Shown in pieces: positions 44,020 to 60,530 of a stretch of 64,000 nt of DNA. Both the position numbers and the translations under genes were made by a program. Origin of the DNA: Pelomonas cellulosilytica (GTDB lineage: Bacteria; Pseudomonadota; Gammaproteobacteria; Burkholderiales; Burkholderiaceae_C); contig NZ_JAJTWU010000009.1 of the NCBI RefSeq assembly GCF_021353265.1, forward strand, positions 124,001 to 188,000, in the 5' to 3' direction. The notes under the pieces are model-generated. The model made no database searches. It was given only the letters and a program-made list of their open reading frames with translations, and had not been told where the DNA came from. Each line of letters opens with the position of its first letter. Position 1 is the stretch's first letter.

Positions 44020-45465
44020 CTATGCGATCAGCCGCGCCAGTGCACCCGGCTGGAAGTGCGCGTCGACGAAATCCGCCAGGCCATCGAACACGGCCTCCAG
44101 CGGCCGGCCAGCCTGACCGAACAGCGCTTGCAGCACGGCCGGCTGCTCGAACAGGCCGTGGGCATAGACGCCCAGCACGCGGCCGGCCTGCCAGCCGATG
44201 GGCTCGCCCGCACCATTGCGCAGCGCGACGCGCGGCGGCGCCAGCGCAGGGTGGGGCTGCGTGCGGCCGTGGCGGATCTCGTAGCCCTGGGCCTCTACGC
44301 CGCCCAGCCCGGCCCAGGGACCGTCCAGCGCGTCGAACCGCAGCGCCGTGTTGCGCAGCAGCTTGTCGGGCTCGAAAGCCGTCACCAGCGGCAGCAGGCC
44401 CAGACCCGGCGCGTTGCCGTCGATGCCATGCGTGTCTACCAGCGCTTCGCCCAGCATCTGCAGGCCGCCGCAGATGCCCAGCACGGGGCCGGGGTGGGCG
44501 TGAATGGCCGCATCCAGCTCCTGCGCGCGCAGCCAGGCCAGGTCCGCCGCGGTGGCCTTGCTGCCGGGCAGGATGACCCAGTCCGCGCCGGCCAAGTCGC
44601 GCGGCTCGCGGGCCCAGCTCAGGCGCACGCCCGGCAGCTGGCGCAGCGGCTGGAACTCGTCAAGGTTGGACAGCCGGGGGTAGGCGACGATGGCGATGTG
44701 CAGGCCGCTGCCGGCGGCCGCATCGTCGAAGACGCCGTCCTCTTCGGGCAGGCCGTGGCCGCGCCACATCGGCAGCGTCGCGACGGTGGGCACGCCGGTC
44801 AGGCGCTGCAGTTCCTCGGGGCCGGGCGACAGCAGCGAGGCGTCGCCGCGGAAGCGGTTCAGCACGAAGCCCCTCACCTGCTCGCGCACGTCAGCCGGCA
44901 TCAGCTGGTGGGTGCCGTAGAGGTGGGCGAAGGCGCCGCCGCGGTCGATGTCGGTGACGAGCAGGCAGGCGGCCTGCGCGTCGCGAGCCGTGCCGAGGTT
45001 GACGTAGTCGCTGGTCGCGAGGTTGATCTCGGCCGGCGAGCCGGCGCCCTCGATGACGACGACATCGTTCTCGGCCTGCAGCGCGCGCAGCGCCGCACTG
45101 GCCCGCGGCGCCAGCAGCGCGCTGCGCTTGCGCCACGGCATGCGGGAGAGCTGCGCGTCCACTTCGCCCAGCACGACGACCTGGCTCTGCGTGTCGGCCT
45201 CGGGCTTGAGCAGCACCGGGTTCATGCGCACCTCGGGCACGCGGCGGGCGGCCAGTGCTTGGAAGTACTGCGCGCTGCCGATCTCGCCAAGCCGTCCGTC
45301 CGGGCCTGGCACGACGCGCGCGTTGTTGCTCATGTTCTGCGCCTTGAACGGCGCGACTGTCAGGCCCTGGCGTGCATACCAGCGGCACAGCGCCGTGGCC
45401 AGCCAGCTTTTGCCGGCGCCGCTGGTTGTGCCCAGCACCATGACGGCCTTGCCTTGCGGGCTCAT
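44020..45465 (-). CDS. cobQ: Cobyric acid synthase
   Basis: 481 residues. Amidates adenosylcobyrinic acid a,c-diamide at b, d, e and g using glutamine and ATP. The N-terminal dethiobiotin-synthetase-like domain has VMVLGTTSGAGKSWLATALC, APFKAQNMSNNARV and VIEGAGSPAEINL; the C-terminal glutaminase domain has the catalytic Cys in VLGICGGLQMLGE and a late His in VLGVYAHGLFE. It shares four bases with the upstream cobC gene. Last gene of the cobalamin run. Confidence 0.96.
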   Translation of the reverse strand: MSPQGKAVMVLGTTSGAGKSWLATALCRWYARQGLTVAPFKAQNMSNNARVVPGPDGRLGEIGSAQYFQALAARRVPEVRMNPVLLKPEADTQSQVVVLGEVDAQLSRMPWRKRSALLAPRASAALRALQAENDVVVIEGAGSPAEINLATSDYVNLGTARDAQAACLLVTDIDRGGAFAHLYGTHQLMPADVREQVRGFVLNRFRGDASLLSPGPEELQRLTGVPTVATLPMWRGHGLPEEDGVFDDAAAGSGLHIAIVAYPRLSNLDEFQPLRQLPGVRLSWAREPRDLAGADWVILPGSKATAADLAWLRAQELDAAIHAHPGPVLGICGGLQMLGEALVDTHGIDGNAPGLGLLPLVTAFEPDKLLRNTALRFDALDGPWAGLGGVEAQGYEIRHGRTQPHPALAPPRVALRNGAGEPIGWQAGRVLGVYAHGLFEQPAVLQALFGQAGRPLEAVFDGLADFVDAHFQPGALARLIA

Positions 45466-46442
45466 GAGTCCTCGCCTTCGATTTCCAGCAGCGCCTCCTG
45501 CAGCGCCTGCTGGGCCACCGGTGGCTGGGCCGACACGCGCACCCAGCCGTCCAGGCCGAACGAGGCGGCGTCCCGCACGCGGATGCCGTGCTCGCGCAGC
45601 CGCAGGCCGATGTCGGGCCGCGGCGGGCGGGCCAGCCAGAAGTTCGTGGAGCTCGGGCGTTGCAGCCAGTCCACGTCGGCCAGCATCGCGCGCTGGGACG
45701 TCGTCCATCGGCGCAGCTCGGCACGGGCGTCGGCCAGCCAGGCCTGCGTGTCGGCCTCGGGCCAGTGCATCAGCATTGCGACGCCTTCGGCCGACAGGAC
45801 CCAGCTCGGCGCGAGCGACAGCGCGTGGCACCACGCCTCGTCGGCCGCCGACGCGACGATGTAGCCGGCACGAATGCCGGTCAGCCCCAGCGCCTTGTTC
45901 GGGCAGATGAGCTGCCAGGCGCCCGGCGGCAGCGCGGGCGCATCGCCGGACAGCCGCAGCGGCTCGTAGGCGCGGTCGACGACGACCAGCGCGTCCAGCG
46001 CTGGCCAGTCGGCGTGGCTCTCGCCCGTCGGGTTGGCGGGCTCGCAGATCCACACGAGGGCAGGCGCGGCGGGGCGGATGTCGGCGGGCGTGGCATAGGG
46101 CTTCACGGTAAGCCCCAGCGCGCGGGCGGCGAGCGCATAGTCGCCGAAGCCGGGCTGCGGCACCCACACTTCGCGCCGCCCGGCCAGCATCGCGGCCAGC
46201 GTCAGCCGGCGGATGCCCTCGGCGCCGCCGGCCGTCGGCAGGATGAGGTTGGCCTCGCCATCGCCGGCCAGGCGCCGGCGCAGCACGCGGTAGCCGGGGT
46301 CGGGGTAGCGGGTGCGGTCGGCCGCCTGCACGGCCCGCAGCAGCGCCGGCGGCGGACCCAGCGGGCTGGCGTTGGTGGAGAAATCGTGCAGCGCCGGCGG
46401 GCCGTCGTCGGGCCCGCCGTGCTCGGCTTGCAAAGGTGTCAT
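45462..46442 (-). CDS. cobC: Threonine-phosphate decarboxylase
   Basis: 326 residues, PLP aminotransferase fold. It makes (R)-1-amino-2-propanol phosphate, the linker between corrin ring and nucleotide loop; Salmonella calls it CobD. DFSTNASPLGPPPALL, WICEPANPTGES, VVVDRAYEPLRL and the PLP-lysine segment ICPNKALGLTGIRAGY are visible. Overlaps cbiB and cobQ by four bases each. The aminotransferase relative HisC is excluded by context and by the cobC-like start. Confidence 0.92.
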   Translation of the reverse strand: MTPLQAEHGGPDDGPPALHDFSTNASPLGPPPALLRAVQAADRTRYPDPGYRVLRRRLAGDGEANLILPTAGGAEGIRRLTLAAMLAGRREVWVPQPGFGDYALAARALGLTVKPYATPADIRPAAPALVWICEPANPTGESHADWPALDALVVVDRAYEPLRLSGDAPALPPGAWQLICPNKALGLTGIRAGYIVASAADEAWCHALSLAPSWVLSAEGVAMLMHWPEADTQAWLADARAELRRWTTSQRAMLADVDWLQRPSSTNFWLARPPRPDIGLRLREHGIRVRDAASFGLDGWVRVSAQPPVAQQALQEALLEIEGEDS

Positions 46443-47353
46443 GAAGCGCTCCTCAAGGCCCAGGCCAGGCCGGCCATCAGCACGGTACCCGCGACGACGG
46501 CTTGCTGCGCGACGCCGCAGGCCGCCTGCAGGTCGCCGGGCCGGGCCGCTGTGCCCTCGGCATGCAGCGTGTAGACGCCGGGCTTGGACAGCCGGCGGCC
46601 CAGCCGCAGCGCCATCGCCGCCATCGGCCAGCCGCTGTTGGGCGACGGCGTGCGGCGGGCCTCGCGCGGCAGCGCCCGCAGCGACGGCGGCCACAGCAGC
46701 AGCGCGGTGACGCGCGCCGGCAGCCACGACAGCAGGTCGTCCGCGCGCGCGGCCCACTTGCCGCTCCATTCGCGCTCGTCGCGGTAGCCCCACATCGCAT
46801 CGGCCGTGTTCGCAAAACGGTAGACGGCCGCGCCCGGCAGGCCGAAGACGGCGAACCAGAACAGCGGCGCGATGACCGAGTCGTTGAGGTTCTCGGCCAG
46901 CGTCTCGATGGCGGCCTCGCGCACCTCGGTCTCGGTCAGCGCCGACGTGTCGCGGCTGACCAGACGCGACAGCCGCGCGCGGCCGGCGTCCAGTGACTGC
47001 TGCAGTGCGACCTCGACGGCCAGCGCCTCGTCGGACAGCATGCGCCAGGCCAGCAGCGGCTTCAGCAGCAGCCCCGTCAGCAGCGCCGCGCCCAGCAGGC
47101 GTGGCCACGAGGTCGCCGGTTGCAGGCCGATCAGCACCCAGCCTGCCAGCCACAGTGCGACGAAGGCCACGCCGGCCGCGCCCACCAGCCATGCGAGCGC
47201 GCCGGCCGTGAACGCCAGTGCAGGCGGCAGGCGCGTCAGCTTGAACCAGCCGAGGTAGCGGCCCATCGCGACGACCGGATGCGCCCACGCCGGCGGCTCG
47301 CCCCACAGGCGGTCCACCGACAGTGCGACGACGAGGGACAGCGGCAGCAGCAT
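46439..47353 (-). CDS. cbiB: Adenosylcobinamide-phosphate synthase
   Basis: 304 residues, integral membrane, about five or six helices. Attaches the aminopropanol (phosphate) arm to cobyric acid; named CobD in Pseudomonas. Blocks: DRLWGEPPAWAHPVVAMGRY, EAAIETLAENLNDSVIAPLFW, YRFANTADAMWGYR and RRTPSPNSGWPMAAMA, all typical of the family. Overlaps cobC by four bases; starts 12 bases after the DUF1636 gene. Confidence 0.95.
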   Translation of the reverse strand: MLLPLSLVVALSVDRLWGEPPAWAHPVVAMGRYLGWFKLTRLPPALAFTAGALAWLVGAAGVAFVALWLAGWVLIGLQPATSWPRLLGAALLTGLLLKPLLAWRMLSDEALAVEVALQQSLDAGRARLSRLVSRDTSALTETEVREAAIETLAENLNDSVIAPLFWFAVFGLPGAAVYRFANTADAMWGYRDEREWSGKWAARADDLLSWLPARVTALLLWPPSLRALPREARRTPSPNSGWPMAAMALRLGRRLSKPGVYTLHAEGTAARPGDLQAACGVAQQAVVAGTVLMAGLAWALRSAS

Positions 47354-47365
47354 GCGGTCAGGCGT

Positions 47366-47701
47366 TCATGCGAGGGGCGGCAGCCGCGCCAGCACGGCGC
47401 TCTTGAGCCGCTCGGGCCGGCGCGCCCAGGCTAGCAAGCCGTCGCCAGGCTCGGCGTGCTGTGCAGCCACGTCCAGCAGCGCGTCGACGCAGGCGTCGTC
47501 CGGCGTCAATTGGCCGAACACATAGCTGTGCTTGCCGGCGCCTTGCAGCGCGGCCGTGCAGCTCTGCTTACAGGCGGCCATGCAGGCCTGGCCGCGGATG
47601 GGCAGCGTGCAGTCGCGCGCGAGCGCCTCGTTCTCGACGGCTTCCAGCAGCGCCTGCCCCTGGCCGTCGGCACAGGTCGTGCAAATGGTGATCGTGCTCA
47701 A
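47366..47701 (-). CDS. DUF1636 Cys-rich metal-binding protein
   Basis: 111 residues. Thioredoxin-like ferredoxin pattern: TICTTC near the start and GQACMAACKQSC in the middle, then HSYVFGQLTPDDA, as in DUF1636, a family often seen in cobalamin gene clusters. It could carry an iron-sulphur cluster or other metal, perhaps an electron donor for corrinoid reduction before adenosylation (inference). TTG 47701 overlaps the cobO stop (TTGA) and is the only start near the conserved N-terminus. Confidence 0.82.
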   Translation of the reverse strand: MSTITICTTCADGQGQALLEAVENEALARDCTLPIRGQACMAACKQSCTAALQGAGKHSYVFGQLTPDDACVDALLDVAAQHAEPGDGLLAWARRPERLKSAVLARLPPLA

Positions 47702-48267
47702 TCCTCGATCCCCCGCTGCGCCGGCACTCCGGCCTGGTAGTGGTGCTTGACCAGCGTCATCTCGGTGACCGTGTCGGCCAGCTCGACCAGTTCGGCCGGC
47801 GCGCCGCGGCCGGTCAGCACGACGTTGACATGGGAGGGCCGCTCGCGAAGGCAGGCCAGCACTGACTCCAGCGGCAGCCAGCCGTAGCGCAAGGGGTACA
47901 TGATCTCGTCCAGCACCACCATGAAATGCTCGCCGGCGCGGATCGTGGCCTCGGCCTGGGCCCAGCCGTCGCGGGCGAGCTGGGCGGAATGCTCCAGGTC
48001 CTTGCTCTTCCACGAGAAGCCGTCGCCCAGCCCAATGACCGGCACGCCCAGTTGCTCGAAGACGCGGTGCTCGCCGAAGCGGGCGCTGGGCACCTTCATG
48101 AACTGGTAGATCCTGACCGCTTTGCCACGGCCGTGCGCGCGCAGCGCCAGGCCGAAGGCGGCCGTGCTCTTGCCCTTGCCGTCGCCGGTGTGCACAAGCA
48201 CCAGGCCGCGCCGTTCCGCCTTGGGCACGATGCGCTCGTGGTTGAGCGGGGGGTGTTCAATTTCCAT
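47698..48267 (-). CDS. cobO: Cob(I)yrinic acid a,c-diamide adenosyltransferase
   Basis: 189 residues, CobA/BtuR family. Adenosylates the corrinoid cobalt with ATP. LVLVHTGDGKGKSTAAFGLA is the P-loop, VLDEIMYPLRYGWL the Walker B-like block and VVLTGRGAPAELVELAD a family block. Overlaps bluB by 11 bases and the DUF1636 gene by four. Confidence 0.96.
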   Translation of the reverse strand: MEIEHPPLNHERIVPKAERRGLVLVHTGDGKGKSTAAFGLALRAHGRGKAVRIYQFMKVPSARFGEHRVFEQLGVPVIGLGDGFSWKSKDLEHSAQLARDGWAQAEATIRAGEHFMVVLDEIMYPLRYGWLPLESVLACLRERPSHVNVVLTGRGAPAELVELADTVTEMTLVKHHYQAGVPAQRGIED

Positions 48268-48907
48268 CGTCGGGACACTCCATCAACAGTTCATGCAGCG
48301 GCCGACGCTGACGCCAGCCGCATTCTTCCAGCATCGGCCGCGCGTAGAAGGCCGGCACCGGCCCCAGGCACAGCAGGCCCAGCGGCTCGGCGCCGGGCGG
48401 TAGTTGCAGCAGCCGGGCCAGCGCGGCGGGGTCGAACATCGACACCCAGCCAAGCCCCAGGTTCTCGGCGCGTGCGGCCAACCACAGGTTCTGCACCGCG
48501 CAGGCGGCCGAGCACCAGGCCATCTCGCGTGGCAGTGTGCGGCGGCCGAAAACGGTGCCGTCGTCCGGCGCGACGATGACGGCCAGCAGCTCGGCGCAGT
48601 CGCGCAGGCCTTCCACCTTCAGCTGCAGGAACTCGCCCGCGCGCTTACCCAGCGCCTGCGCGGTGGCCTGTCGCTCGGCCTCCACCAGCGGTGCGAGCCG
48701 ATCGCGCCAGGCGGGCGTGCTCAGCCGCATGAAGCGCCAGGGCTGCATCAGCCCGACCGACGGCCCCTGGTGGGCGGCCTGCAGCAGGCGTTGCAGCTGC
48801 TCTTCGGGCAGCGGCGGCGACGGCTGGAAGTGGCGCACATCGCGGCGCTGCGCGATGACGCGGTAGATCGCGTCGCGCTCGGCGGTGCTGAAGCCGGTGT
48901 CAGACAT
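48257..48907 (-). CDS. bluB: 5,6-Dimethylbenzimidazole synthase
   Basis: 216 residues, flavin destructase of the nitroreductase fold. Converts reduced FMN plus O2 to the lower ligand DMB, so it needs oxygen. IAQRRDVRHF, AAHQGPSVGLMQPWRF, LPREMAWCSAACAVQNLWLA and LGLGWVSMFDP are BluB blocks. Overlaps the 3' end of cobN by eight bases. Its presence means the cell makes its own lower ligand, useful for remodelling imported corrinoids. Confidence 0.94.
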   Translation of the reverse strand: MSDTGFSTAERDAIYRVIAQRRDVRHFQPSPPLPEEQLQRLLQAAHQGPSVGLMQPWRFMRLSTPAWRDRLAPLVEAERQATAQALGKRAGEFLQLKVEGLRDCAELLAVIVAPDDGTVFGRRTLPREMAWCSAACAVQNLWLAARAENLGLGWVSMFDPAALARLLQLPPGAEPLGLLCLGPVPAFYARPMLEECGWRQRRPLHELLMECPDDGN

Positions 48908-51900
48908 GGTGCAACTCCGGTTGAGGCCGGCGCCGGCCCTGCCAGGCGGCGCCGCCGGCTACGAGCAGCAGCATGCCGGTGCCGGCCAGCGCCTGCGACA
49001 GCAGGCTGGCCGCAGTGGCGGTCTTGGACGGCGTCTCGGCGGCGGGCTGCGCCTGCAGCTGCAGGCCGCGTACGGCGGGCGTAGGCGAAGGCGCAGGCCC
49101 AGGCGTTGCGCGTGCCCCGTGGGTTTGGGCTTGCGCAGCAGTCGGCGTGACGACCGTCTGCGGCTGCTGGCCCTCGGCCCAGCGGCGCACGCCGGCCAGC
49201 TCGTTGGCCAGCGGCGCCTGGCGCGTCAGATCCCGGTACTGCTGTGCGAGCTGTTGGCGCGTGGCGGCGTCCGGCTGCCAGTAGCCCAGGCGCTCGGCCT
49301 GGATCAGCCGCTCCAGCGTCTGCGCATAGGCCTGCGGGTTCTGCCGCAGCCATTGCGGCACGCCCAGCCGGTGCTTGTCCTGCACCAGCACGTCGTAGAA
49401 GCTCTGCCAATGGTCGGCCCGCACGGTGCCCGGCGCGATGTGCTGCCAGCCGAAGCTGTACTGCACAGCCTTGAGCACCTGCAGCGCGCCGGCCCAGCCC
49501 TCGGCCTGCTGCGCCTTCAGCCAGCCGGGGTGAAGGTAGCGTGTCTGCATCTCCAGCGCCAGGGCCTGGGCGGCCGTCTCGGTGTGCTGCTCGGCCGCGT
49601 CCTGCAGCTGGCTGACGTGCAGCGTGATGTCTTCCGCCTTGCCCGCCACCTTCGCGGCGGCGGTCAGGCCACCGAGGTACTGGAAGGGATCGTCACTGCT
49701 GACCATCGCATAGAGGTGGCTGCTGCGCGACATCAGCGCCGCGTCGGTGTGGCGCAGGTGGGCGCCGAGCGCCTGCCGGGCCTGCGCGGCGGGCACGGCC
49801 AGTGGCTCGCCGTCTACGTAGGGCTGGCTCATCGTGTTCAGGAAGAGCTGGCCCAGGCGCGGGTCGGCCTGGCCGTTGCGGGTCTGCAGTCCGTCGGACT
49901 GCACAGCGTCGGCGATGCCGGTGCCGTAGTCGCCCGCGGGGTTGCCGAACACGCGGGCCAGCGCCAGCGCCCTGGCCTGCGCCGGCTTCACGCCGGCCCG
50001 GCGCAGCTCGCGCTCCACGGCCGCGTTGTTCTGCGCGATGGCGTTGCCGGGCTCGGCCCGGGCCACGGTGGCGACGGCCTGGTCCAGAAGCTTCATCAGC
50101 GCAGGGAACTGGTCTCGGTAGGAGCCGGTGACGGACAGCAGCACGTCCACACGCGGCCGGCCCAACTCGGCCGGTGGCAACAGCTCGATGCTGGTGGGGC
50201 GGCCGGTGGTGTCCCAGATGGGCCGCGCGCCCAGCGCGACGAGCGCCTGCGCTTCCATGACGCCCTGGTGGCGCAGCGTCTCGCCGGCCCACAGCGACAG
50301 CGCCAGCCGCTGCGGCGCGCGGCCGCTGCGGGCCTGCTCGGCGTACCAGCGCTTGAAGAGCGCCTGTGCGGCCTCGTAGGCCTGGCGCGTGGGCAGGCGA
50401 TTCGGGTCCAGCCCGGTAAGGTTGCGGCCGGTGGGCAGGCTCTCGGGGTTGCGGAGCAAGTCGCCGCCATAGGCGGCCGGCAGGAAGCGGCCGTCCAGCG
50501 CGCGCAGCAGGCCGGGCATCTCGCCTTCGATGCCCAGTCGTACCCACATCTGCTGCGCCCGCAGCGCCAGCTCGCGCAGCGCCGCCGAGTCGATGGGCTT
50601 GCGCGCCGCGCGGTTGGGCACGAAGCCGTCGCCGCAGGCGCCGCTCGCCGCGGGGGTTGATGCGCTGCTGGCCGCCATGCAGGCCGACGGGCGCAGGTCC
50701 AGCAGGCTGGCGGCCTCGGCATCCTGCAGCGCCAGCGCCAGCCAGCGCGCCGGGCGGGCCTGAGCCACGCCCTCGTGGTTGATGAGGAAGGCCTCGTCGA
50801 TGTCCTCGCCCAGCGCTTCGATCAGCGGCACGCGCAGCCACTGCAGGATGGAGCCGCGCCGCTGCGCCTCGTCGGGCACGCTGCCGAACACCGCCAGGCC
50901 CTGCGGCTGGGAGCTTTGCGCGAGCCGGTCCAGCCAGGGGTGCAGCAGTTCCAGGAAACCGGCGAAGTTGGCCGCGATCTGCTCGGTCGTCCAGCCCAGG
51001 TCGTGGTGCAGGTTGTGCTCGACGAACTGCTGCGTCATGTCCCGCTCCAGCCGCTGGCGTGTGGGGCCGGGGTCCACGGTCTCCCACTCGTGCATCAGCT
51101 CGTGCATGTGGGCCATGCGCGCGTTGAAGCCGGCCGGCGCGAAGCTGGGCGTGCGGTGGCTGACCATCAGCGCGCGGCCGCGCCGCTTGGCGGTCAGCGC
51201 CTCGCCGAGGTTGTCGACGATGTAGGGGTAGATGACCGGCACGTCGCCCAGCGGCAGCCAGACCGGGTCCAGCACATCGGGCCCGCGCAGCTTGCCCGGA
51301 GCCCATTCCTGCGTGCCATGCGTGCCGAAGTGGATGACGGCGTCGGCCTGCCGCGCCCACAGATAGGTGGCCAGGTAATGGTGCGACAGCGGCGTCTTGC
51401 TGCGATGCATGAACGGGTCCTGCCCCAGGCGCAGCGTCTCCTCGCGGGGCGGTTGCGGCAACACGGCCAGCGCGCCGAGCTGCAGTCGCGGGATGACGAA
51501 CACCGGCTCGCCGCGCCAGCGCAGCACGTAGCGGCTGCTGGCCGGCGCACCCCAGCGCGCGACGATGGGTTCGCGTACGGCGGCCGGCAGCGCGTCGAAC
51601 CAGGCCTGGTAGCGCGTCAACGGCAGCGCCTCGGCCTGGCCCGCGTCCAGCAGCGCACGCAGGTCGGCGCCCGGGTAGTAGGCCGACAGCAGCGGCTTCA
51701 GGTCGTTGATCCAGTCCGTCTCGGCCCGCGGTGTGACCGCATAGCCCGCGGCTTGCAGACCCTCGCTGACGCGCGCCAGGCTGCGCGGCACGTTCAGGAA
51801 CGACGCACCGAAATTGCTGCCGCCCGGCGGGTAGTTGTAGACGAAGGCCACCAGCCGCTTGTCCGCATTGGGCTTGGCCTGCAGCGCGATCCAATGCGCC

Positions 51901-52955
51901 GCCTTGGCCGCGACGCTGGCCGCCTGTCGCTCGATGAGCTGGGCCTCGCCCTGCTTCGGGTGTGCCACGACGACCACCGGGTCGATGAGCCCGGCCGCCT
52001 CGGGCTGGGCGAAGTAGAAGGGGATGTCGGCCTGCGCCAGACCGGTCTCGCTGGCCTCCCAGACGGCAGCCGCGTCCTGCCGGTAGGGCTGGGTCTGCAG
52101 CACCGGCACGCCCCACCGCTCGAAGGTGGGCTGCAGGTTGGCGCCCTGCGTCAGCAGGGCGTGGTTGACAACGACGCGCGCCTGCAGCCGGCCGTCCTGC
52201 TCCAGTAGCTGAGCCAGCGGCGCGGCGCTCCACTGGCTGCTGAAGGCGGCGTAGGCCAGCACGCCCCGCTGCCGGAACAGCGCTAGCCAGCGGTCCAGCC
52301 AGGCGGTGTCGCCCTGCACGAAGTGGTAGCGGTGCAGCAGCAGCGCGACCGGCTCGCCGCGCAGGCCTTGTTGCGCGGCCCAGGCGCGGAATTCGGCAGC
52401 GTTGGCGAACAGCCCCGGTGCGCCCGGGTGGTAGATGCCGCGCTGCGGGATGGGCTGTGGCGGCGCCAGTGCCGGCGGTGGCTGCCCGGCCCATTGCGAG
52501 CGGGCCAGCGCGAACGCCGCCCGCGTGTTGGCCGGGCCGCCGGCCTGCAGGTAGGCGCGCAGGCCAGCGTCACCGGCTGCGGGCTCGCCGGGCGGAATCC
52601 ACAGCACGCGGGCGCCCGGCCGCGCGGCCTGGCGCAGCGGTGCGTCCAGCAGCGGCCGCAGCCGCGCCTCGGCGCTGGCATGGGGCACGTCCACCCACAC
52701 CCAGTCCGCCCGGCCTAGGGCCTTTTGCAGTGCCTGCTCCTGGGTGGGGGCCAGCGCGGCACCGCGCAGCGGGTATTCCAGCTGCTGCACGCTGAAGCCG
52801 GCGGCGCGGCCCTCGCGGTCGATCAGCGCATGCTTGGCCGCGGGCGTGACGTCCACGCTGATGAACAGCAGCCGCGGTGCGGCCGCAGCCCAGGCGCGCC
52901 CGCCGGCCAGGGCCAGCATCATCAGCAGGCCCAGCGTGCGCAGTCGCCGCGTCAT
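48900..52955 (-). CDS. cobN: Exported, membrane-anchored CobN-like chelatase
   Basis: 1351 residues, CobN/magnesium-chelatase H family, about as long as cytoplasmic CobN. The N-terminus is a signal peptide (LGLLMMLALAGGRAWA). The body has the family core: HFGTHGTQEWAPGKLRGPDV, YPYIVDNLGEALTAKRRGRA, PGGSNFGASFLNVPRSLA and WDTTGRPTSIELLPPAELGRP. After a Pro/Ala-rich linker (about 1260-1315) comes one hydrophobic helix (GTGMLLLVAGGAAW) and a basic tail. The enzyme should therefore sit in the periplasm, tethered to the inner membrane, not act as the cytoplasmic cobaltochelatase. No CobS/CobT or ChlI/ChlD gene is present. Upstream, overlapping genes encode ExbB- and ExbD-like proteins that could power it. 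Metal insertion, removal or corrinoid transfer are all possible. Confidence 0.9.
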   Translation of the reverse strand: MTRRLRTLGLLMMLALAGGRAWAAAAPRLLFISVDVTPAAKHALIDREGRAAGFSVQQLEYPLRGAALAPTQEQALQKALGRADWVWVDVPHASAEARLRPLLDAPLRQAARPGARVLWIPPGEPAAGDAGLRAYLQAGGPANTRAAFALARSQWAGQPPPALAPPQPIPQRGIYHPGAPGLFANAAEFRAWAAQQGLRGEPVALLLHRYHFVQGDTAWLDRWLALFRQRGVLAYAAFSSQWSAAPLAQLLEQDGRLQARVVVNHALLTQGANLQPTFERWGVPVLQTQPYRQDAAAVWEASETGLAQADIPFYFAQPEAAGLIDPVVVVAHPKQGEAQLIERQAASVAAKAAHWIALQAKPNADKRLVAFVYNYPPGGSNFGASFLNVPRSLARVSEGLQAAGYAVTPRAETDWINDLKPLLSAYYPGADLRALLDAGQAEALPLTRYQAWFDALPAAVREPIVARWGAPASSRYVLRWRGEPVFVIPRLQLGALAVLPQPPREETLRLGQDPFMHRSKTPLSHHYLATYLWARQADAVIHFGTHGTQEWAPGKLRGPDVLDPVWLPLGDVPVIYPYIVDNLGEALTAKRRGRALMVSHRTPSFAPAGFNARMAHMHELMHEWETVDPGPTRQRLERDMTQQFVEHNLHHDLGWTTEQIAANFAGFLELLHPWLDRLAQSSQPQGLAVFGSVPDEAQRRGSILQWLRVPLIEALGEDIDEAFLINHEGVAQARPARWLALALQDAEAASLLDLRPSACMAASSASTPAASGACGDGFVPNRAARKPIDSAALRELALRAQQMWVRLGIEGEMPGLLRALDGRFLPAAYGGDLLRNPESLPTGRNLTGLDPNRLPTRQAYEAAQALFKRWYAEQARSGRAPQRLALSLWAGETLRHQGVMEAQALVALGARPIWDTTGRPTSIELLPPAELGRPRVDVLLSVTGSYRDQFPALMKLLDQAVATVARAEPGNAIAQNNAAVERELRRAGVKPAQARALALARVFGNPAGDYGTGIADAVQSDGLQTRNGQADPRLGQLFLNTMSQPYVDGEPLAVPAAQARQALGAHLRHTDAALMSRSSHLYAMVSSDDPFQYLGGLTAAAKVAGKAEDITLHVSQLQDAAEQHTETAAQALALEMQTRYLHPGWLKAQQAEGWAGALQVLKAVQYSFGWQHIAPGTVRADHWQSFYDVLVQDKHRLGVPQWLRQNPQAYAQTLERLIQAERLGYWQPDAATRQQLAQQYRDLTRQAPLANELAGVRRWAEGQQPQTVVTPTAAQAQTHGARATPGPAPSPTPAVRGLQLQAQPAAETPSKTATAASLLSQALAGTGMLLLVAGGAAWQGRRRPQPELHHV

Positions 52956-53284
52956 CGCGGCGCGGAAGCGGCGTTGCCGCCCTCGGGCACGTAGATGATG
53001 CTGCCGTCCTTCATGCGGTAGGCCACGCCAGCGCGCTCGCCCTGGCCTTCGCTGCTGCCGCCGTTGCCGCGGTAGCGCACCTCCTGGCCGTCGCGGCGCA
53101 CGATGATCTCCATGCCCGGCTGGCCGGGGTTGCGGATGATGGTCTCGTTGGCCTGCGACTGCTGCTGCATCGCCACCGCCGTCAGCAGCGCGACGACCAG
53201 TACGAGGAACACGTCGACGAGGTTCACCGCCGACAGCAGCGGGTCGTCGTCCTCCTCGGCAAGGATGTGCAGCCGCTGGCTCAT
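52952..53284 (-). CDS. DUF2149 protein, ExbD/TolR-like stator partner
   Basis: 110 residues: a short cytoplasmic start, one membrane helix and a periplasmic domain. The helix region DPLLSAVNLVDVFLVLVVAL has an Asp (D24) at the position of the essential proton-carrying Asp of ExbD/TolR/MotB, followed by the same LVLV-type helix. The periplasmic part has IIVRRDGQEVRYRG and ends SIIYVPEGG. DUF2149 proteins are known beside CobN-like and MotA/TolQ/ExbB genes. Overlaps cobN (ATGA) and the ExbB-like gene. Confidence 0.83.
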   Translation of the reverse strand: MSQRLHILAEEDDDPLLSAVNLVDVFLVLVVALLTAVAMQQQSQANETIIRNPGQPGMEIIVRRDGQEVRYRGNGGSSEGQGERAGVAYRMKDGSIIYVPEGGNAASAPR

Positions 53285-53739
53285 GCCCAGCCCTGCTCGG
53301 CCTTGATGGCCAGCAGTTCGGCCAGCAGCCAGCGGCGGCGCACCGAGTACACCGCCAATGCGATCGCCGCAGCGGCCAGCGCCAGCACGACGCCTGAGAA
53401 CGCCGAGCTGAACACGGCCAGCGCCTGCTGGCCCTGGCCGGCCGCCACGCTCTGCAGGGCGGGGCCCAGCGGCACCATCGTTGCGATCAGGCCCAGCAGC
53501 GGGGCGATTCGGCCCAGCAGCCGCGCGGGCTCGAGCCGGCGCACGATCTGCAGCTCCAGGCCTTCGACGCTGCTGCCTTCTGTCACGCGCAGCACTCGGT
53601 AGTCGGGCGAGCGGCGCTGCACTGCCTCCATCAGCGTCGCACCGGCTGCCCACAGCGCGTAGACGAAGCCCGCCGCGACGAGCAGCAGCACCGGCCACAG
53701 TAAGGCCTGGGCGACATGGGCGAAGGTGGTCTCAAGCAT
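53281..53739 (-). CDS. MotA/TolQ/ExbB-family proton channel protein
   Basis: 152 residues with three membrane segments: ALLWPVLLLVAAGFVYALWA, PLLGLIATMVPLGPALQ and FSGVVLALAAAAIALAVYSV. The second and third carry the family pattern (GLIATMVPLG, AFSGVVLALAAAAIA). It should form a pentamer around the ExbD-like helix and convert ion flow to motion. Start 53739 is chosen because the helices begin soon after; it overlaps cobB by eight bases. No TonB is encoded here, so the pair probably drives the adjacent CobN rather than outer-membrane receptors (inference). Confidence 0.85.
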   Translation of the reverse strand: MLETTFAHVAQALLWPVLLLVAAGFVYALWAAGATLMEAVQRRSPDYRVLRVTEGSSVEGLELQIVRRLEPARLLGRIAPLLGLIATMVPLGPALQSVAAGQGQQALAVFSSAFSGVVLALAAAAIALAVYSVRRRWLLAELLAIKAEQGWA

Positions 53740-55036
53740 GGCGGGTGGTGCCGAGGAAGAAGTCTGCGACGGCGTCGGGGTTGGACGGGAAGTAGTGGTG
53801 CACATAGCTCGCGCGCAGCGGGCCGTGCTGGTACAGCGCCTCGGCGGTCGTGCCGCCGTTGGGGTTGGTGGCCGTGGCGATGGGCGCCAGCGGCGTATCC
53901 AGCGTCGAGTAGTGGTAGCTGTGGCCGCGCAGCGGACCCTCGGGCCAGTCGAGCGCCTGCAGGCCCAAAGCGGCGAAGCGGTGGTGCACGCGGGCCTGGC
54001 CGGGCAGCAGGCCGGCCATGCGGTGGGGCCGGCCGTTGGCGTCGGTCAGCGTGTCCAGCAGCGCCAGCATGCCGCCGCACTCGGCCAGCAGCGGCTTGGT
54101 GGCGTCCGCATGCGCGCGCAGCGAGGCCCACAGCGTCGGGTGTGCGGCCAGCGTGGCGGCATGCAGCTCGGGGTAGCCGCCGGGTAGCCACAGCGCGTCG
54201 CAGTCGGGCAGCGGCTGGTGCTGCAGCGGCGAGAAGAACTGCAGTTCGGCGCCCAGCGCGCGCAGCAGGTCGACGTTGGCGGGATAGATGAAGCCGAAGG
54301 CGGCGTCGCGTGCGATGGCGATGCGCCGGCCGGCGAGCCGCCGCTGCGGCGCCGGTTCGGGCTGGTGGTCGAAGGCCACCGCTGCGATGCGCAGCCCCGG
54401 CATCAGCGCGGCGTCCCAGGCGTCGGCCCAGCCGTCCAGCAGCTCGTGCAGTCGCGGCAGCTCCTCGGCCTGCACGAGGCCCAGGTGACGCTCGGGCAGG
54501 CTCAGCGCGGCGTTGCGCGACACGGCCGCCACCAGCGGCAGGTCGCCGGGCAGGCCCTCGCCCAGCATGCGGCCGTGCGCGGCGCTGGCCACGCGGTTGG
54601 CGATGACGCCGCAGTGCCGCACCTCGGGCCGGAAGCGCGCCAGGCCCGTCGCCAGCGCGGCGAAAGTCTGTGCCATCGCCGACGCGTCGATGACGCAGGC
54701 CACCGGCAGGCCGAAGGCGGCGGCGAGGTCGGCGCTGCTGGGCGCGCCGTCGAACAGGCCCATGACGCCTTCGACGAGGATGAGGTCGGCCTCGCGCGCC
54801 GCCGCGGCCAGCAGGCCCTGGCAATGCGTGAAGCCGCCCATGAACAAGTCCAGCTGGTAGACCGGATGGCCGCTGGCGCGCTCCAGCAGCATGGGGTCGA
54901 GGAAGTCGGGGCCGGTCTTGAAGACGCGCACGCGCTCGCCGCGGCGCGCATGGCTGCGGGCGATGGCGGCGGTGATGCTGGTCTTGCCGGAGCCGGAGGA
55001 CGGCGCGCTGATGAAGAGGGCTGGGCAGGTGGTCAT
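53732..55036 (-). CDS. cobB: Cobyrinic acid a,c-diamide synthase
   Basis: 434 residues, glutamine- and ATP-dependent (CbiA type). ALFISAPSSGSGKTSITAAI is the P-loop, VFKTGPDFLDPMLLERASGH and LVEGVMGLFDGAPSSADLA are family blocks, and the C-terminal glutaminase part has LLAECGGMLALLD (catalytic Cys) and ASYVHHYFPSNPD. It amidates the a and c side chains before adenosylation. Overlaps btuD (ATGA-type) and the ExbB-like gene. With no ring-building genes nearby it would allow salvage from cobyrinic acid level. Confidence 0.95.
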   Translation of the reverse strand: MTTCPALFISAPSSGSGKTSITAAIARSHARRGERVRVFKTGPDFLDPMLLERASGHPVYQLDLFMGGFTHCQGLLAAAAREADLILVEGVMGLFDGAPSSADLAAAFGLPVACVIDASAMAQTFAALATGLARFRPEVRHCGVIANRVASAAHGRMLGEGLPGDLPLVAAVSRNAALSLPERHLGLVQAEELPRLHELLDGWADAWDAALMPGLRIAAVAFDHQPEPAPQRRLAGRRIAIARDAAFGFIYPANVDLLRALGAELQFFSPLQHQPLPDCDALWLPGGYPELHAATLAAHPTLWASLRAHADATKPLLAECGGMLALLDTLTDANGRPHRMAGLLPGQARVHHRFAALGLQALDWPEGPLRGHSYHYSTLDTPLAPIATATNPNGGTTAEALYQHGPLRASYVHHYFPSNPDAVADFFLGTTRHA

Positions 55037-55791
55037 AGGGGCAGGGCGATCCAGCGCCCGTCGATCTGCGTGATGTGAAGGCGCGGGCCGAAGACACGGC
55101 GCAGCGCGTCGTGCGTGGCCGGGTCGGCCGGCGCGCCGGTGTGCTCGACGCGGCCGGCGGCCATCAGCACGAGGTGGTCGGCCTGCAGCGCCAGGTGCAA
55201 CTCGTGCAGCACGCTGACGACGCTGTGCCCGGCGGTGACGCTCTCGCGCACGAGGGCCATCCAGTCGGCCTGGTGCGGCGGGTCCAGGTGTGCCAGCGGC
55301 TCGTCCATCAGCGTCAGCGGCGCGTCGACGGCCAGCGTGCGCGCCAGCAGCACGCGTTGTCGTTCGCCGCCGGACAGCGAACCCAGCCGGCGCTCGCGCC
55401 AGTCCCAGCTCTGCGTGGCGCGCATGGCCCGTTCGGCGGCGGCGTGGTCGGCGGCCGTCAGCGGTGCGAGCCACGGGCGATGTGGCAGCCGGCCCAGCAG
55501 CACGACGTCCAGCGCGGTCAGGTCGTCGGAGCCGGTTTCCTGCTGGCCCATCCAGGCCAGCTGGCGGGCGCGTTCGCGAGCCGGCCAGTCCTGCAGGCGG
55601 CGCCCGGCCAGCTGCACCTCGCCCTCGCAGGGCTGCAGGCCGGCGATGGCGCGCAGCAGCGTCGACTTGCCGGCGCCGTTGGGTCCGACGATCGCGGTCC
55701 AGCGCTGCAGCGGCAGCGTCAGCTCAATGTCGTGCAGCAGCTCGCAGCCGGCGATCGCCAGGCGGACGATGCGGGCGTGAAGGATGCTCAT
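55033..55791 (-). CDS. btuD: Vitamin B12 ABC importer, ATP-binding protein
   Basis: 252 residues. Walker A VGPNGAGKSTLL, Q-loop WMGQQETGS, signature LSGGERQRVLLA, Walker B LTLMDEPLAHLD and the switch His in SVLHELHLAL. Powers BtuC. GGAGGG nine bases upstream favours ATG 55791 over ATG 55800, which would touch the Shine-Dalgarno. Overlaps cobB by four bases. Confidence 0.94.
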   Translation of the reverse strand: MSILHARIVRLAIAGCELLHDIELTLPLQRWTAIVGPNGAGKSTLLRAIAGLQPCEGEVQLAGRRLQDWPARERARQLAWMGQQETGSDDLTALDVVLLGRLPHRPWLAPLTAADHAAAERAMRATQSWDWRERRLGSLSGGERQRVLLARTLAVDAPLTLMDEPLAHLDPPHQADWMALVRESVTAGHSVVSVLHELHLALQADHLVLMAAGRVEHTGAPADPATHDALRRVFGPRLHITQIDGRWIALPL

Positions 55792-55903
55792 GGCTGCCAT
55801 CCCTCCAAGGGACGGCAGACGGTGGGCCGGGCGCCGGGCCGCTCCCAGGCTGGCCCGCCCGGGCGATGGGCTCGAGGCTCGAGGCGGCGCTGGACGAGGG
55901 GTT

Positions 55904-56875
55904 TCATTGTTTGCGTCGGTGCATCAGCACCAGCAGGTAGAGGCCTCCCAGCAGTGCTGTGACGATGCCTACCGGCAGCTCCTGCGGCCGGATCAGCGCG
56001 CGGGCCAGCACGTCGGCGGCCAGTAGCAGCGCGCCGCCGGTCGCGGCCGACAGCAGGATGAGCCAGCCGTGCAGCAACGGGCACAGCAGTCGCACGAGGT
56101 GGGGCGACACCAGCCCGACGAAGGCGACGATGCCGGTCTGCGCTACGGCGGCACCGGTCGCCAGCGCGAAGGCACCGATCAGCAGCAGCCGCATCAGCGG
56201 CAGCCGGATGCCCAGCGACGAGGCCGTGGCTTCGCCCAGCGTCAGCGCGTCCAGCGCTGGACCTGCCAGCAGGCCCACGACAAGCGCGGCCAGGCCGCAT
56301 CCGGCCATCACCGCGACGCTGCTCCAGCCCAGCAGCCCGGTATTGCCGAGCAGGAATGCCTGCATCGTGCGCAGGATGTCGGGCACCCACAGCGCGGTCA
56401 GCCCGGTGAGCGCGTTCAGCACGACGCCGACGATGACGCCGGCCAGCAGCAGGCGCAGCGTCTGCTCGGCGCCGCGAGCCAGCATCAACGTCAGCCCCAC
56501 GCCCACCATCGTGCCGATGAAGGCCAGGCCCGTGAGCCCGACATGCGCGGCCAGCGAAGAGGCTTGCGGCGACAGGCCGGTGAACGCGAGCGCCAGTGCG
56601 ACGGCCAACTGCGCGCCCGATGCGCTGCCGAGCAGGTAGGGGTCGGCCAGCGGATTGCGGAACAGCCCCTGCGACATCGCGCCGGCCATGCCCAGCAGCG
56701 CCCCGGCGCACCAGGCGCCGAGCGACCGCGGCAGGCGGATCTCCCAGAGGATGACGCTCATGCCGTCGTCGCGCAGGTCCGCCCAGCCGGTGCTGCCGAC
56801 GAGCACGCCAGCGAGCACGCCGACGATGCCCAGGCACAGCAGCGCGACGAGCAGCCAGACGGGACGGAGATTCAT
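55904..56875 (-). CDS. btuC: Vitamin B12 ABC importer, permease
   Basis: 323 residues, FecCD family, about ten membrane helices. ILWEIRLPRSLGAWCAGALL, GLFRNPLADPYLLGSASGAQ and FVGLVSPHLVRLL are typical, the last near the coupling helix region. ATG 56875 is preferred; the longer frame to 57082 reads low-complexity antisense of btuF. A 112-base gap to btuD contains no gene. Confidence 0.94.
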   Translation of the reverse strand: MNLRPVWLLVALLCLGIVGVLAGVLVGSTGWADLRDDGMSVILWEIRLPRSLGAWCAGALLGMAGAMSQGLFRNPLADPYLLGSASGAQLAVALALAFTGLSPQASSLAAHVGLTGLAFIGTMVGVGLTLMLARGAEQTLRLLLAGVIVGVVLNALTGLTALWVPDILRTMQAFLLGNTGLLGWSSVAVMAGCGLAALVVGLLAGPALDALTLGEATASSLGIRLPLMRLLLIGAFALATGAAVAQTGIVAFVGLVSPHLVRLLCPLLHGWLILLSAATGGALLLAADVLARALIRPQELPVGIVTALLGGLYLLVLMHRRKQ

Positions 56876-56900
56876 GCGAGCCCCGGCAGCAGATGGGCCA

Positions 56901-57752
56901 TCACCGCGCCTTCTCGCGCAGGCAGCGCGCCATGATCTGCGCGGCCTCGGCCATGCGCGGGCCGGGGCGGGACAGGACGTCACCCTCGTCGGCGCTGAAG
57001 ACGCAGACGCGGCCGCGGCGGATCGCGTCGATGCGGTCCCATCCCGGGCGCTCGGCCAGGCCTTGCGCGCCACGGGCGCCAATCATGATCAGCGCCGGGT
57101 TGGCCTTGACGACGTATTCGGGGTTGAGCTTGGGGAAGGGCCCCAGCGCCGCGGGGATGATGTTGACGGCGCCCAGCCGCGTGAGCGTCTCGCCCATGAA
57201 GGACGACTCACCGGCGCCCCACAGGCCGCTGGACACCTCGTAGAACACGCGCATGCCGTGCGCAGCCGGTGGCACGCTGCTGGCCGCCGCGGCGACGCCG
57301 GCCTCGATGTGGCGCCAGACGCGCTGCGCGTCGGGCACGTTCAGCACCTGGCCCACGAGGCCCAGCACGCGCTGCACGTCCTTGTAGCTGCGCGGCTCCA
57401 GCGCGACGACCTTGAGCCCCAGCGCACGCAGCCGCTCTGACACGCGCGATGACACCGCCAACAGCACGACGTCGGGCTTCAGCGCAGCGATCAGCTCGAC
57501 GTTGGTGTCGTCCATGCCGCCCAGCTTCGGCAGCGCGTTCACGCTGGCGGGGAAGTTGGAGTAGCGGTCAACGCCGACGAGCCGCGCACAGGCGCCCAGC
57601 TCGCAGACAGTCTCGGTCAGCGACGGCAGCAGACTGACGATGCGCTGCGGCGGAGCCTCCAGCCGCGTGGTGGCGCCGCCGTCGTCCTTGATCTCGACGG
57701 CGGCGGCCGCGGGCAGCGCCACGGCCAGCAGCCACAGCAGGGGTTTAAACAT
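56901..57752 (-). CDS. btuF: Periplasmic cobalamin-binding protein
   Basis: 283 residues. Signal peptide (MFKPLLWLLAVALPAAAA), then the class III binding protein fold: PPQRIVSLLPSLTETVCELG, LVGVDRYSNFP, LPKLGGMDDTNVELIAALKP and PDVVLLAVSSR. Delivers cobalamin or other corrinoids to BtuCD. ATG 57752 lies within the end of cobU (eight-base overlap); seven codons further upstream is a less likely start. Confidence 0.93.
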   Translation of the reverse strand: MFKPLLWLLAVALPAAAAVEIKDDGGATTRLEAPPQRIVSLLPSLTETVCELGACARLVGVDRYSNFPASVNALPKLGGMDDTNVELIAALKPDVVLLAVSSRVSERLRALGLKVVALEPRSYKDVQRVLGLVGQVLNVPDAQRVWRHIEAGVAAAASSVPPAAHGMRVFYEVSSGLWGAGESSFMGETLTRLGAVNIIPAALGPFPKLNPEYVVKANPALIMIGARGAQGLAERPGWDRIDAIRRGRVCVFSADEGDVLSRPGPRMAEAAQIMARCLREKAR

Positions 57753-58296
57753 CGATGTCGTCCTCGATCGCACGGGTCCAGGCCTGGCCGGCCACCATCA
57801 GCGTCAGCCGGGCGCAGCGCCGGGCCACGTCCTGGTTGAGCCGGCCCAGCTCGTCCACGTAATGCCGCACGTCGCGGCCCAGCGGGCTCACGCCCCAGCC
57901 GACCTCGTTGGAGATGAACAGGACCGGCGACGCCAGCCGCGGCAGCAGCGCCAGCAGCGCCTCGCGCTCGGCGTGCCAGCCGTCGGCGTCCGGCGCGCCG
58001 TGAAGCGGCATCAGCCAGTTGCACAGCCACAGCGTCAGGCAGTCCACGACGACCAGCGTACCGTCGCGGTCCACCTGGCGCAGCGCGGCGCCAAGGGCCA
58101 GCGGCGCCTCGACGGTCTCGAAATGCGCCGGCCGCGTGGCCCGGTGGTGGGCGATGCGTGCGCGCATCTCCTCGTCGGCCGCCAGCGCCGTGGCGATGAC
58201 GACGACGCGGCCCGGCCAGCGCAGTGCCAGCCGTTCGGCCCGGCCCGACTTGCCGCTGCGTTGGCCGCCGACGATGAGTTCGTGAGCTTGCGTCAC
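57745..58296 (-). CDS. cobU: Adenosylcobinamide kinase / guanylyltransferase
   Basis: 183 residues, the CobU/CobP bifunctional enzyme. LIVGGQRSGKSGRAERL is the P-loop, VIATALAADEEMRARIAHHR holds the guanylylated-His region, VVDCLTLWLCNWL and SNEVGWGVSP are standard. Salvages cobinamide and activates it with GTP for lower-ligand attachment. GTG start with GGAGG nine bases upstream. Lies 42 bases after btuB. Confidence 0.95.
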   Translation of the reverse strand: MTQAHELIVGGQRSGKSGRAERLALRWPGRVVVIATALAADEEMRARIAHHRATRPAHFETVEAPLALGAALRQVDRDGTLVVVDCLTLWLCNWLMPLHGAPDADGWHAEREALLALLPRLASPVLFISNEVGWGVSPLGRDVRHYVDELGRLNQDVARRCARLTLMVAGQAWTRAIEDDIDV

Positions 58297-60240: not shown

Positions 60241-60329
60241 GAAAGAGAGAACACGAGCAATCACCAGCCCTGCTGACCCCCGCAGCGAGGCTGGAAAACG
60301 GCCGCCCTGTGCTTGCGCGTGGCGACCCC

Positions 60330-60530
60330 GTCGTTGGCCGGTATCCGGGCTGATGGACTTTCGCGTGATCCCGACACCTTCCCAGCGCTGACGCGCCAGT
60401 GGCTTGTCGGTCGAGATCAGGAGCCGAGGCTCCGTCCACTTACCGTTGCGGGGACAGCTCAGGTTAGGTTGACCGCGAAGCGGCGCGCCCTCCTGATTCC
60501 CGTTGAACTGCACCCAGCATGACACCGGGC
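60330..60530 (-). promoter_or_regulatory. Cobalamin (AdoCbl) riboswitch upstream of btuB
   Basis: On the minus strand the leader has the conserved core CTGTCCCCGCAACGGT (60442-60457), an upstream GGGAATCAGGA-type element near 60495, and the B12-box-like GCCCGGATACCGGCC (60336-60350), in the usual order. These mark a cobalamin riboswitch that turns the operon down when adenosylcobalamin is plentiful. It lies about 90-290 bases before the btuB ATG. Exact ends are approximate. Confidence 0.9.

Follow-up and report, generated by a model that had tools for sequence, protein, structure and literature searches.

A 64,000-nucleotide stretch of the genome of Pelomonas cellulosilytica (contig NZ_JAJTWU010000009.1, positions 124,001 to 188,000; the window) was analysed around three overlapping genes on its reverse strand, which code for an apparently exported CobN-like protein, a DUF2149 protein and an ExbB/TolQ-like protein (gene exbB'). 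An initial annotation, made from the sequence alone, had singled these genes out as a candidate ion-driven periplasmic chelatase. All three were found where that annotation had placed them, with matches of CobN to PF02514 and of the DUF2149 protein to PF09919, and with ATGA overlaps between exbB' and the DUF2149 gene and between the DUF2149 gene and cobN. By coordinates, 8-base overlaps also connect cobB to exbB' and cobN to bluB. The three genes are called the triad here, and exbB' with the DUF2149 gene the pair.

48900..52955, minus strand: cobN, apparently exported CobN/HmuS-superfamily chelatase-like protein of 1351 amino acids (PF02514, 854.6 bits); predicted signal peptide at about residues 1-23, predicted C-terminal anchor at about 1323-1338, site residues H517, H546, E585, D1088, D1089 and Q1092
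52952..53284, minus strand: DUF2149 protein of 110 amino acids (PF09919, 81.3 bits, above the cut-off of 27.1); one membrane helix at 15-42 with the invariant D24, and a small C-terminal part with predicted strands
53281..53739, minus strand: exbB', ExbB/TolQ-like protein of 152 amino acids; three long helices at 2-41, 58-99 and 103-149

Triads of other genomes were grouped by locus content into type B, where the triad lies among B12 genes (10 genomes: the window and loci L057-L059 and L061-L066), type A, where a BtuB-like receptor is nearby, and type C, made up of five same-order or same-class genomes (L158-L162). Gene names in relatives come from tblastn with the window proteins or from translations read by eye, unless a family scan or annotation is named as the source.

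The match of CobN to PF02514 covers nearly the whole model. With the NCBIfam models, CobN scored 1505.1 bits for NF004644, above its cut-off, and 418.7 bits for the CobN equivalog TIGR02257, below the cut-off of 822.05. Both a signal peptide and a C-terminal membrane anchor had been read into CobN, and its sequence supports both: the N-terminus (MTRRLRTLGLLMMLALAGGRAWA followed by AAAP) looks by eye like a classical signal peptide, and the hydrophobic stretch at about 1323-1338 is followed by RRR. The by-eye call was accompanied by a crude hydropathy scan (cut-offs of 1.9 for the N-terminus and 1.5 for the C-terminal stretch), in which many rows are open-frame translations without curated starts. 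The C-terminal stretch of the window protein passed at 1.65, and its N-terminus, at 1.59, stayed under the cut-off. The N-terminus passed in 6 of 10 type-B proteins (that of the window not among them), 18 of 20 type-A and 2 of 5 type-C proteins, and the C-terminal stretch in 10 of 10, 16 of 20 and 4 of 5, respectively, and in none of five cytoplasmic CobN proteins.

The gene at the upstream end of the triad was recognised as ExbB-like by homology and by its predicted helices, as had been claimed for it. Its product carries the motif RxAPxLGLxATMxPxGPAL, and an AlphaFold2 model predicted three long helices (pLDDT 93.1, pTM 0.82). Its PF01618 score of 18.5 bits is under the cut-off of 22.9, which was exceeded by homologues from other triads in five of six cases in one set (L058 misses it, with 22) and in two of two in another. 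The DUF2149 protein, whose structure model is of low confidence (pLDDT 64.6), scored 13.6 bits with the ExbD family PF02472 (cut-off 25.4). Its Asp, D24, which had been likened to that of ExbD, proved invariant in 42 of 42 aligned sequences. Comparison of the pair with ExbB and ExbD of Trichlorobacter by hhalign gave E-values of 0.0036 and 0.0028 at probabilities of only 9 and 11, a weak tie in which D24 is set on the Asp of ExbD. Like ExbB/ExbD, TolQ/TolR and MotA/MotB, the pair consists of a three-helix ExbB-like protein and a single-helix partner with an invariant Asp; unlike in those systems, both window proteins are under the Pfam cut-offs of the ExbB and ExbD families, and DUF2149 has its own short C-terminal part. 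In the window operon no TonB/TolA-like gene was recognised, and a repeat search of positions 48200-54000 gave only weak GC-rich matches.

The B12 salvage operon and its genome

The triad is embedded in an operon of the order btuB-cobU-btuFCD-cobB-exbB'-DUF2149-cobN-bluB-cobO-DUF1636-cobD-cobC-cobQ, with a cobalamin riboswitch at its head. The pair touches cobN and starts at the sixth gene after btuB.

60319..60557, minus strand: cobalamin riboswitch aptamer upstream of btuB (RF00174, 83.4 bits)
58339..60276, minus strand: btuB, TonB-dependent B12 receptor whose start is not fixed (403.7 bits for TIGR01779, its best match, under the cut-off of 599.7)
57745..58296, minus strand: cobU, cobinamide kinase/guanylyltransferase (NF004469, 166.9 bits, cut-off 161)
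55033..57752, minus strand: btuF, btuC and btuD, B12 ABC importer (BtuF-type matches of btuF below cut-offs; btuC and btuD by eye)
53732..55042, minus strand: cobB, cobyrinate/hydrogenobyrinate a,c-diamide synthase (NF002204, 414 bits, cut-off 254)
48257..48907, minus strand: bluB, dimethylbenzimidazole synthase (TIGR02476, 228.6 bits, cut-off 150)
44020..48267, minus strand: cobO, DUF1636 gene (PF07845), cobD/cbiB, cobC and cobQ (cobO, cbiB and cobQ over cut-offs, cobC below)

The B12 regulon in which the triad had been placed was borne out by cobalamin riboswitches at the window and at the loci of relatives. Besides the window, a riboswitch was found in seven of the eight type-B loci searched (the eighth, L066, is cut inside cobB; L063 was not among the loci searched) and in four of the five type-C loci, L159 being the exception. 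In L158 it lies directly before cobN (33.5 bits, cut-off 31.5), and in L160 and L162 it heads a same-strand gene run that reaches cobN. Two cobalamin riboswitches lie in front of a triad locus on a plasmid of Trichlorobacter lovleyi; in the eight type-A loci searched, none was found.

The genome of P. cellulosilytica (6.35 Mb, completeness 100) holds two PF02514 genes, cobN of the window and bchH, which lies between bchB and bchL. A PF00590 (TP_methylase) search of the genome returned four proteins. Two belong to the uroporphyrinogen-methylase type and the others to the RsmI type, where one match stays under the curated NCBIfam cut-off. None of the four is corrin-specific; corrin-ring methylases were thus not found in this genome and the cell should only salvage. 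A role of CobN as a de novo cobaltochelatase was therefore rejected, since its substrate would not be made in the cell and the only other PF02514 gene is bchH. Counts of TP_methylase matches were 2-5 in all 10 type-B genomes and 2-3 in all five type-C genomes, and 10, 7 and 6 in the relatives G052, G027 and G015, with four of the matches clustered in each; the proteins behind the matches were identified in the window's own genome, the figures for relatives being match counts. A search of the window's genome with the general AAA_5 model, which is not specific to CobS or CobT, gave 34 matches; a cytoplasmic ATPase presumably could not touch an exported CobN. Eight other MotA/ExbB-family (PF01618) matches over cut-off are present in the genome, and the ExbB-like gene of the window is not among the PF01618 matches.

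The equivalog NF004644, which bears the name cobaltochelatase CobN, also matched the single type-A protein scanned with it (1380.4 bits). By labelling the exported window protein CobN, it makes the genome look like the holder of a B12-synthesis enzyme despite the missing ring synthesis, and B12-synthesis annotations drawn from this model may mislead.

Two loci elsewhere, L156 (4895-8902) and L157 (5590-9513), carry a cytoplasmic-type CobN with ChlI/ChlD-like neighbours, as judged by eye. Their genomes hold only 2 and 4 TP_methylase matches and are therefore apparently without ring synthesis.

Distribution, phylogeny and active site of related triads

Of 150 family genomes sampled, 24 carry DUF2149 (26 hits). 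CobN lay within the fetched stretch for 20 of these hits and was also seen for L021, via the longer stretch L073; two of the remaining hits are in genomes without PF02514, and L022, L024 and L029 were not settled. In nine other family genomes, too, the triad stands among B12 genes; the fetched stretches of eight show btuFCD and cobB, and the ninth (L063), whose contig is cut short, shows only cobO and bluB, so the arrangement is not due to chance. Type-B loci have the pair immediately upstream of cobN rather than next to btuB. From the family sample, nine type-A loci (L067-L075) were fetched with their flanks; each has CobN, ExbB' and DUF2149 with a BtuB-like receptor close by. A sample of 398 genomes of the phylum contained DUF2149 in 17 (18 hits), with CobN nearby in 18 of 18; 17 of these were seen in short stretches and the eighteenth in the longer stretch L164, at a distance of about 2 kb. 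CobN, ExbB' and DUF2149 are present in all five type-C loci, four of which (all but L159) also have some of cobO, bluB, cobB and cobC. Among the genome_contigs loci (the best 80 of 437 confirmed), CobN was present in 67 and was missing from the fetched stretch of 13. An ExbB-like gene accompanies DUF2149 in 129 of 129 loci examined, some genomes being counted twice.

In four of the 10 type-B loci (L061 at 13549-17245, L062, L063 and L065), genes for a TonB-dependent receptor and a PepSY_TM protein stand next to those of the triad. The PepSY_TM protein was found in 4 of 126 sources, namely in those four loci and in no other loci searched; its family includes periplasmic reductases. Beyond the phylum sample, DUF2149, PF02514 and PF01618 were all matched in Methanosarcina acetivorans, an organism with no outer membrane (presence of the families in the genome). 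The T. lovleyi plasmid pGLOV01 (L179, 4840-16730) carries two riboswitches, a receptor, a DUF2162 predicted transporter, the triad, an exbB-exbD-tonB set and another receptor. On plasmid pRUNSL01 of Runella slithyformis (L180, 5137-13171), a receptor, a permease, a MotA/ExbB-like gene, DUF2149 and CobN lie between hypABF and hypCDE; the permease is annotated as a urease accessory protein, and its NicO match is under the cut-off.

In three loci (L056, L060 and L152), the pair stands next to a secreted repeat protein and is not accompanied by CobN, and L056 and L060 also have a histidine-kinase-like gene, as judged by eye.

A maximum-likelihood tree was built from 49 proteins by a quick search; the groups compared on it had been set by the gene content of the loci. 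The type-B proteins, the type-C proteins and the cytoplasmic CobN proteins each formed one group with a support of 100, and 14 of the 20 type-A proteins grouped with type B (SH-aLRT 86). The B12-associated groups (B, C and Trichlorobacter) stand in three places and need three changes; a single clade of the three was rejected (p-AU 1.57e-8, in a test run after the tree was seen). HmuS of Bacteroidota was placed on the side of the cytoplasmic CobN proteins, apart from the other triads, in a tree with a midpoint root and long branches.

CobN of the window belongs to a superfamily of exported chelatases, the chemically characterised members of which are haem dechelatases of Bacteroidota (HmuS). 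HmuS is reported to remove iron from haem, and the recombinant protein to convert haem in vitro with NADH for 1-2 turnovers (PMC12583661). A link to the hmu loci of Bacteroidota had been pointed out from the outset, and annotated loci confirm it: the HmuS-HmuT-HmuU-HmuV systems (BtuS1/BtuS2 in Bacteroides fragilis) share with the window an exported, anchored CobN homologue and MotA/ExbB-like and DUF2149 genes within one operon. The window differs in having an Asp for the second catalytic His, no His-254 and neither an HmuY nor an HmuT gene, and in its B12 riboswitch and corrinoid salvage operon. A second known relative is the PA1922-PA1925 operon of Pseudomonas aeruginosa, which is reported to be regulated by Zur (PMC4542158). 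We would assign PA1923 to type A from the Pseudomonas loci L092, L094 and L095. This operon and the type-A loci share with the window the CobN-like, ExbB-like and DUF2149 genes and with type B the His/Asp site; they differ in the receptor near the triad and, for the type-A loci searched, in the lack of a B12 riboswitch.

Active-site residues are numbered here as in HmuS by Nath et al. (PMC12583661). In the window CobN, the catalytic His-538 (as H546) and Glu-577 (E585) are kept, as is His-506 (H517), and both catalytic residues are conserved in 10 of 10 type-B and 5 of 5 type-C proteins. The second metal-facing (axial) residue of HmuS, His-1209, is an Asp (D1089) in the window, Glu-1212 is a Gln (Q1092), and the HmuS motif LSLDHxxEFMGG is not matched by the window's SSDDPFQYLGG. 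An Asp at the place of His-1209 was found in 10 of 10 type-B, 20 of 20 type-A and 5 of 5 type-C proteins, in Trichlorobacter and Runella and in 5 of 5 cytoplasmic CobN proteins, and a His in three of three Bacteroidota proteins and in L169 and L170. His-254, part of the head/neck haem site, is replaced by L267 in the window and by Leu in 10 of 10 type-B proteins; Met-79 could not be placed in the alignment. The methionine-rich insertion of HmuS is missing from the window protein (at most 5 Met per 80 residues of the middle part) and was found in only one of three Bacteroidota comparators (21 Met, the others having 5 and 7). In the window protein, Thr stands for Lys in HxGKHG, as in the haloarchaeal CobN compared. 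The residue pattern therefore points to a site like that of cobaltochelatases and type A and unlike that of a haem dechelatase. With cobaltochelatase CobNST, which inserts cobalt late, the window protein shares the PF02514 fold and the Asp; it differs in the TIGR02257 score, the Thr, its apparent export and the lack of a ring pathway feeding it.

One triad CobN homologue, in L163 (8826-12866), has neither the catalytic His nor the catalytic Glu and may be a non-enzymatic offshoot.

Proposed function and its alternatives

In what follows we infer the periplasmic location of CobN, its coupling to ion flow and its chemistry. We tentatively propose that the triad is a corrinoid-acting periplasmic CobN machine with its own ion-driven pair, a reading that we regard as plausible if still short of probable. 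CobN would be a B12-regulated protein of the class I chelatase superfamily, located in the periplasm and anchored to the inner membrane, and would act on corrinoids imported by BtuB before they pass to BtuF-BtuCD. The ExbB-like/DUF2149 pair would form an ion-conducting, stator-like unit in the inner membrane and would drive the opening and closing of the chelatase. It would thereby replace the cytoplasmic AAA+ partners (CobST, ChlID), since these could not reach a periplasmic protein. The triad should widen or protect B12 salvage. Behind this reading are the salvage operon and its riboswitch, the absence of corrin-specific methylases, bchH as the sole other PF02514 gene, the B12 riboswitches of type-B, type-C and Trichlorobacter loci, the recurrence of B12-linked triads in three places of the tree, the conserved catalytic His and Glu, the proximity of CobN to the pair in all 18 hits of the phylum sample, and the points given below against a TonB role of the pair. 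As the cell apparently cannot make the ring and needs corrinoid rings over cobalt, a corrinoid would be both substrate and product. The single most likely chemistry would be metal insertion or exchange that makes cobalt-free or wrong-metal corrinoids usable, rather than cobalt removal. It is favoured because a salvage-only cell needs the ring and not the metal and because no metal permease was recognised in these loci, and it is nevertheless unlikely when taken by itself. The permeases were looked for by eye beside the triads of types B and C (no model search was made, and in L059 and L064 some 2 kb that separate cobN from bluB are unassigned). In triad loci that do have a metal permease, the metal itself seems to be what the cell is after. 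Ligand exchange in cobalt(III) corrins is slow, so the receptor and PepSY_TM additions of four type-B loci would fit a reductive step.

Several observations weigh against this proposal. The genomes G052 and G054 carry the pair and no PF02514 gene, and in five of the best 80 of 437 confirmed loci (L097, L109, L124, L130 and L152) no CobN was found near the pair with 10 kb upstream seen. A strict link of the pair with CobN is weakened by such cases. A congener, G030, has the same salvage operon at 70-85% identity, lacking the triad and bluB; the matched stretches of its cobB and cobO are six bases apart and its genome has no PF02514 gene. The triad is thus a removable cassette, dispensable for B12 salvage as such. 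Type-C proteins have an Ala at the place of His-506 (5 of 5) and an Arg inside the HxGxH motif, and export of CobN was called by eye and by crude hydropathy. Recombinant HmuS, too, apparently acts in vitro without ExbB/DUF2149 partners. Among the causes of its stop after 1-2 turnovers, the authors name a need for additional cofactors (PMC12583661), and this limit may leave room for a motor, no more. Of the idea of an ion-driven periplasmic chelatase with which the initial annotation had begun, the apparent export, the ExbB-like and ExbD-like features, the hmu link and the B12 regulon stand, and its strict form is weakened, HmuS being active apparently without the pair, the pair being found without CobN in some genomes, and cobalt being hard to remove chemically from a corrin.

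The gene bluB without the triad was found in L173, and neither bluB nor the triad in L172 and L175. The DUF1636 gene (47366-47704 of the window) is kept in the B12 operon of the window and in that of the congener too.

Two candidate markers were also tried and rejected. CobB, considered as a specific partner that would mark hydrogenobyrinate salvage, does not discriminate, being present in many triad-less relatives: it was matched in 10 of 10 type-B genomes (over the TIGR00379 cut-off in two, G122 and G012), and among the 150 family genomes some match was found in 79 and a match over cut-off in 29, those of about 20 bits being presumably CobQ. Cobalt import by CbtA, considered as a sign of metal insertion, was seen in 0 of 15 type-B and type-C genomes and in 2 of 13 others, and is of no help to an insertion reading. 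Both results count against the proposal as well.

The pair could instead energise BtuB together with a TonB from elsewhere, with CobN working alone, a possibility that we consider rather improbable. It follows what the hmu papers say of HmuU/HmuV, which are assigned there to the energisation of HmuR (PMC12583661, PMC10100974), and the proposal of PA1924 for the TonB pathway (PMC4542158). The receptor found near all nine type-A triads fits it, as does L063, where a receptor lies one gene from the pair, a further point against a chelatase motor. It is opposed by the eight other MotA/ExbB-family matches of the genome, by the position of the pair next to cobN and not btuB, and by the family matches in M. 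acetivorans, where there is no outer membrane to be energised across. The exbB-exbD-tonB set directly after the Trichlorobacter triad is separate from the pair, which makes the pair an unlikely TonB energiser. Haem or another tetrapyrrole as the substrate, with an HmuS-type dechelatase standing in a B12 operon by chance, is the least probable of the alternatives and seems very unlikely: superfamily membership speaks for it, and the top solved-structure match of CobN is HmuS 9d26 with 290 bits, yet the CobN structures 9uk9 (287.4) and 7c6o (286.3) are nearly equal, the changes at His-1209, Glu-1212 and His-254 run through the window and 10 of 10 type-B proteins, and the B12 association recurs in three lineages.

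Equally improbable as the TonB reading, in our view, is that the exported CobN harvests the metal, stripping cobalt from corrinoids or other chelates in the fashion of HmuS. Pulling cobalt out of an intact corrin is difficult chemistry, and a cell that only salvages should have little use for free cobalt. No metal permease was recognised by eye next to the triads of types B and C, and CbtA was found in none of the 15 genomes. A B. fragilis mutant lacking both btuS1 and btuS2, moreover, is reported to release porphyrin from haem all the same (PMC6460266). In favour of harvesting, the exported superfamily member with worked-out chemistry, HmuS, is reported to remove its metal (PMC12583661), and related triads stand in settings of metal acquisition, namely the Zur regulon of Pseudomonas (PMC4542158), the Runella triad amid hypABF and hypCDE with its sub-threshold NicO permease, and the Trichlorobacter DUF2162 predicted transporter under two B12 riboswitches. 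A role other than that of a chelatase, in which CobN would strip axial ligands or carrier proteins from corrinoids and hand the corrinoids to BtuF, we hold to be no more probable than harvesting. A small membrane protein in the type-C loci L158, L160 and L162, presumably BtuM-like (the L158 copy was scanned and gave no Pfam match), would suit it, since BtuM removes cyanide from B12, and so would the PepSY_TM protein, possibly a reductase, near the triad in four type-B loci. The catalytic His and Glu kept in 10 type-B and five type-C members go beyond the need of a pure carrier and argue for the corrinoid-acting chelatase proposed here.

The combination of an exported CobN with MotA/ExbB-like and DUF2149 genes is already known from hmu and, as genes, from the Pseudomonas Zur regulon. 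In the literature searched, no description was found of a B12-regulated, salvage-linked triad or of the pair as a chelatase motor. The presence of the triad in a B12-uptake operon suggests a little-studied envelope machine for metal-containing vitamins. If the exported triad does act on corrinoids, B12 salvage would gain a hitherto unrecognised envelope step, and if the pair drives CobN, ion-motive force would be a new source of energy for an enzyme class so far tied to ATPases. The cassette-free congener and the single invariant Asp make both the corrinoid role and the ion drive directly testable.

The known or implied jobs of related triads concern haem iron (HmuS, where this has been demonstrated), zinc (Pseudomonas), nickel (Runella) and cobalt or corrinoids (Trichlorobacter); the Runella locus is, from its gene content, a candidate nickel version. 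Class I tetrapyrrole chelatases might accordingly have two energy modes, one with cytoplasmic AAA+ partners and one with a periplasmic ExbB/ExbD-like ion motor (MotA-like plus DUF2149), the latter a general envelope metal machine of which the window would hold the corrinoid version; this generalisation is doubtful, more so than the proposal for the window itself. The periplasmic mode would move metals into and out of large chelates, and exchanging the receptor, the permease and the residue that faces the catalytic His would have adapted it to haem iron, zinc, nickel and corrinoids. The triad CobN proteins of L169 (9495-13427) and L170 (9075-13025), from another part of the phylum, have a His at the places of both His-254 and His-1209 and a Glu at that of Glu-1212, and are candidate haem dechelatases outside Bacteroidota.

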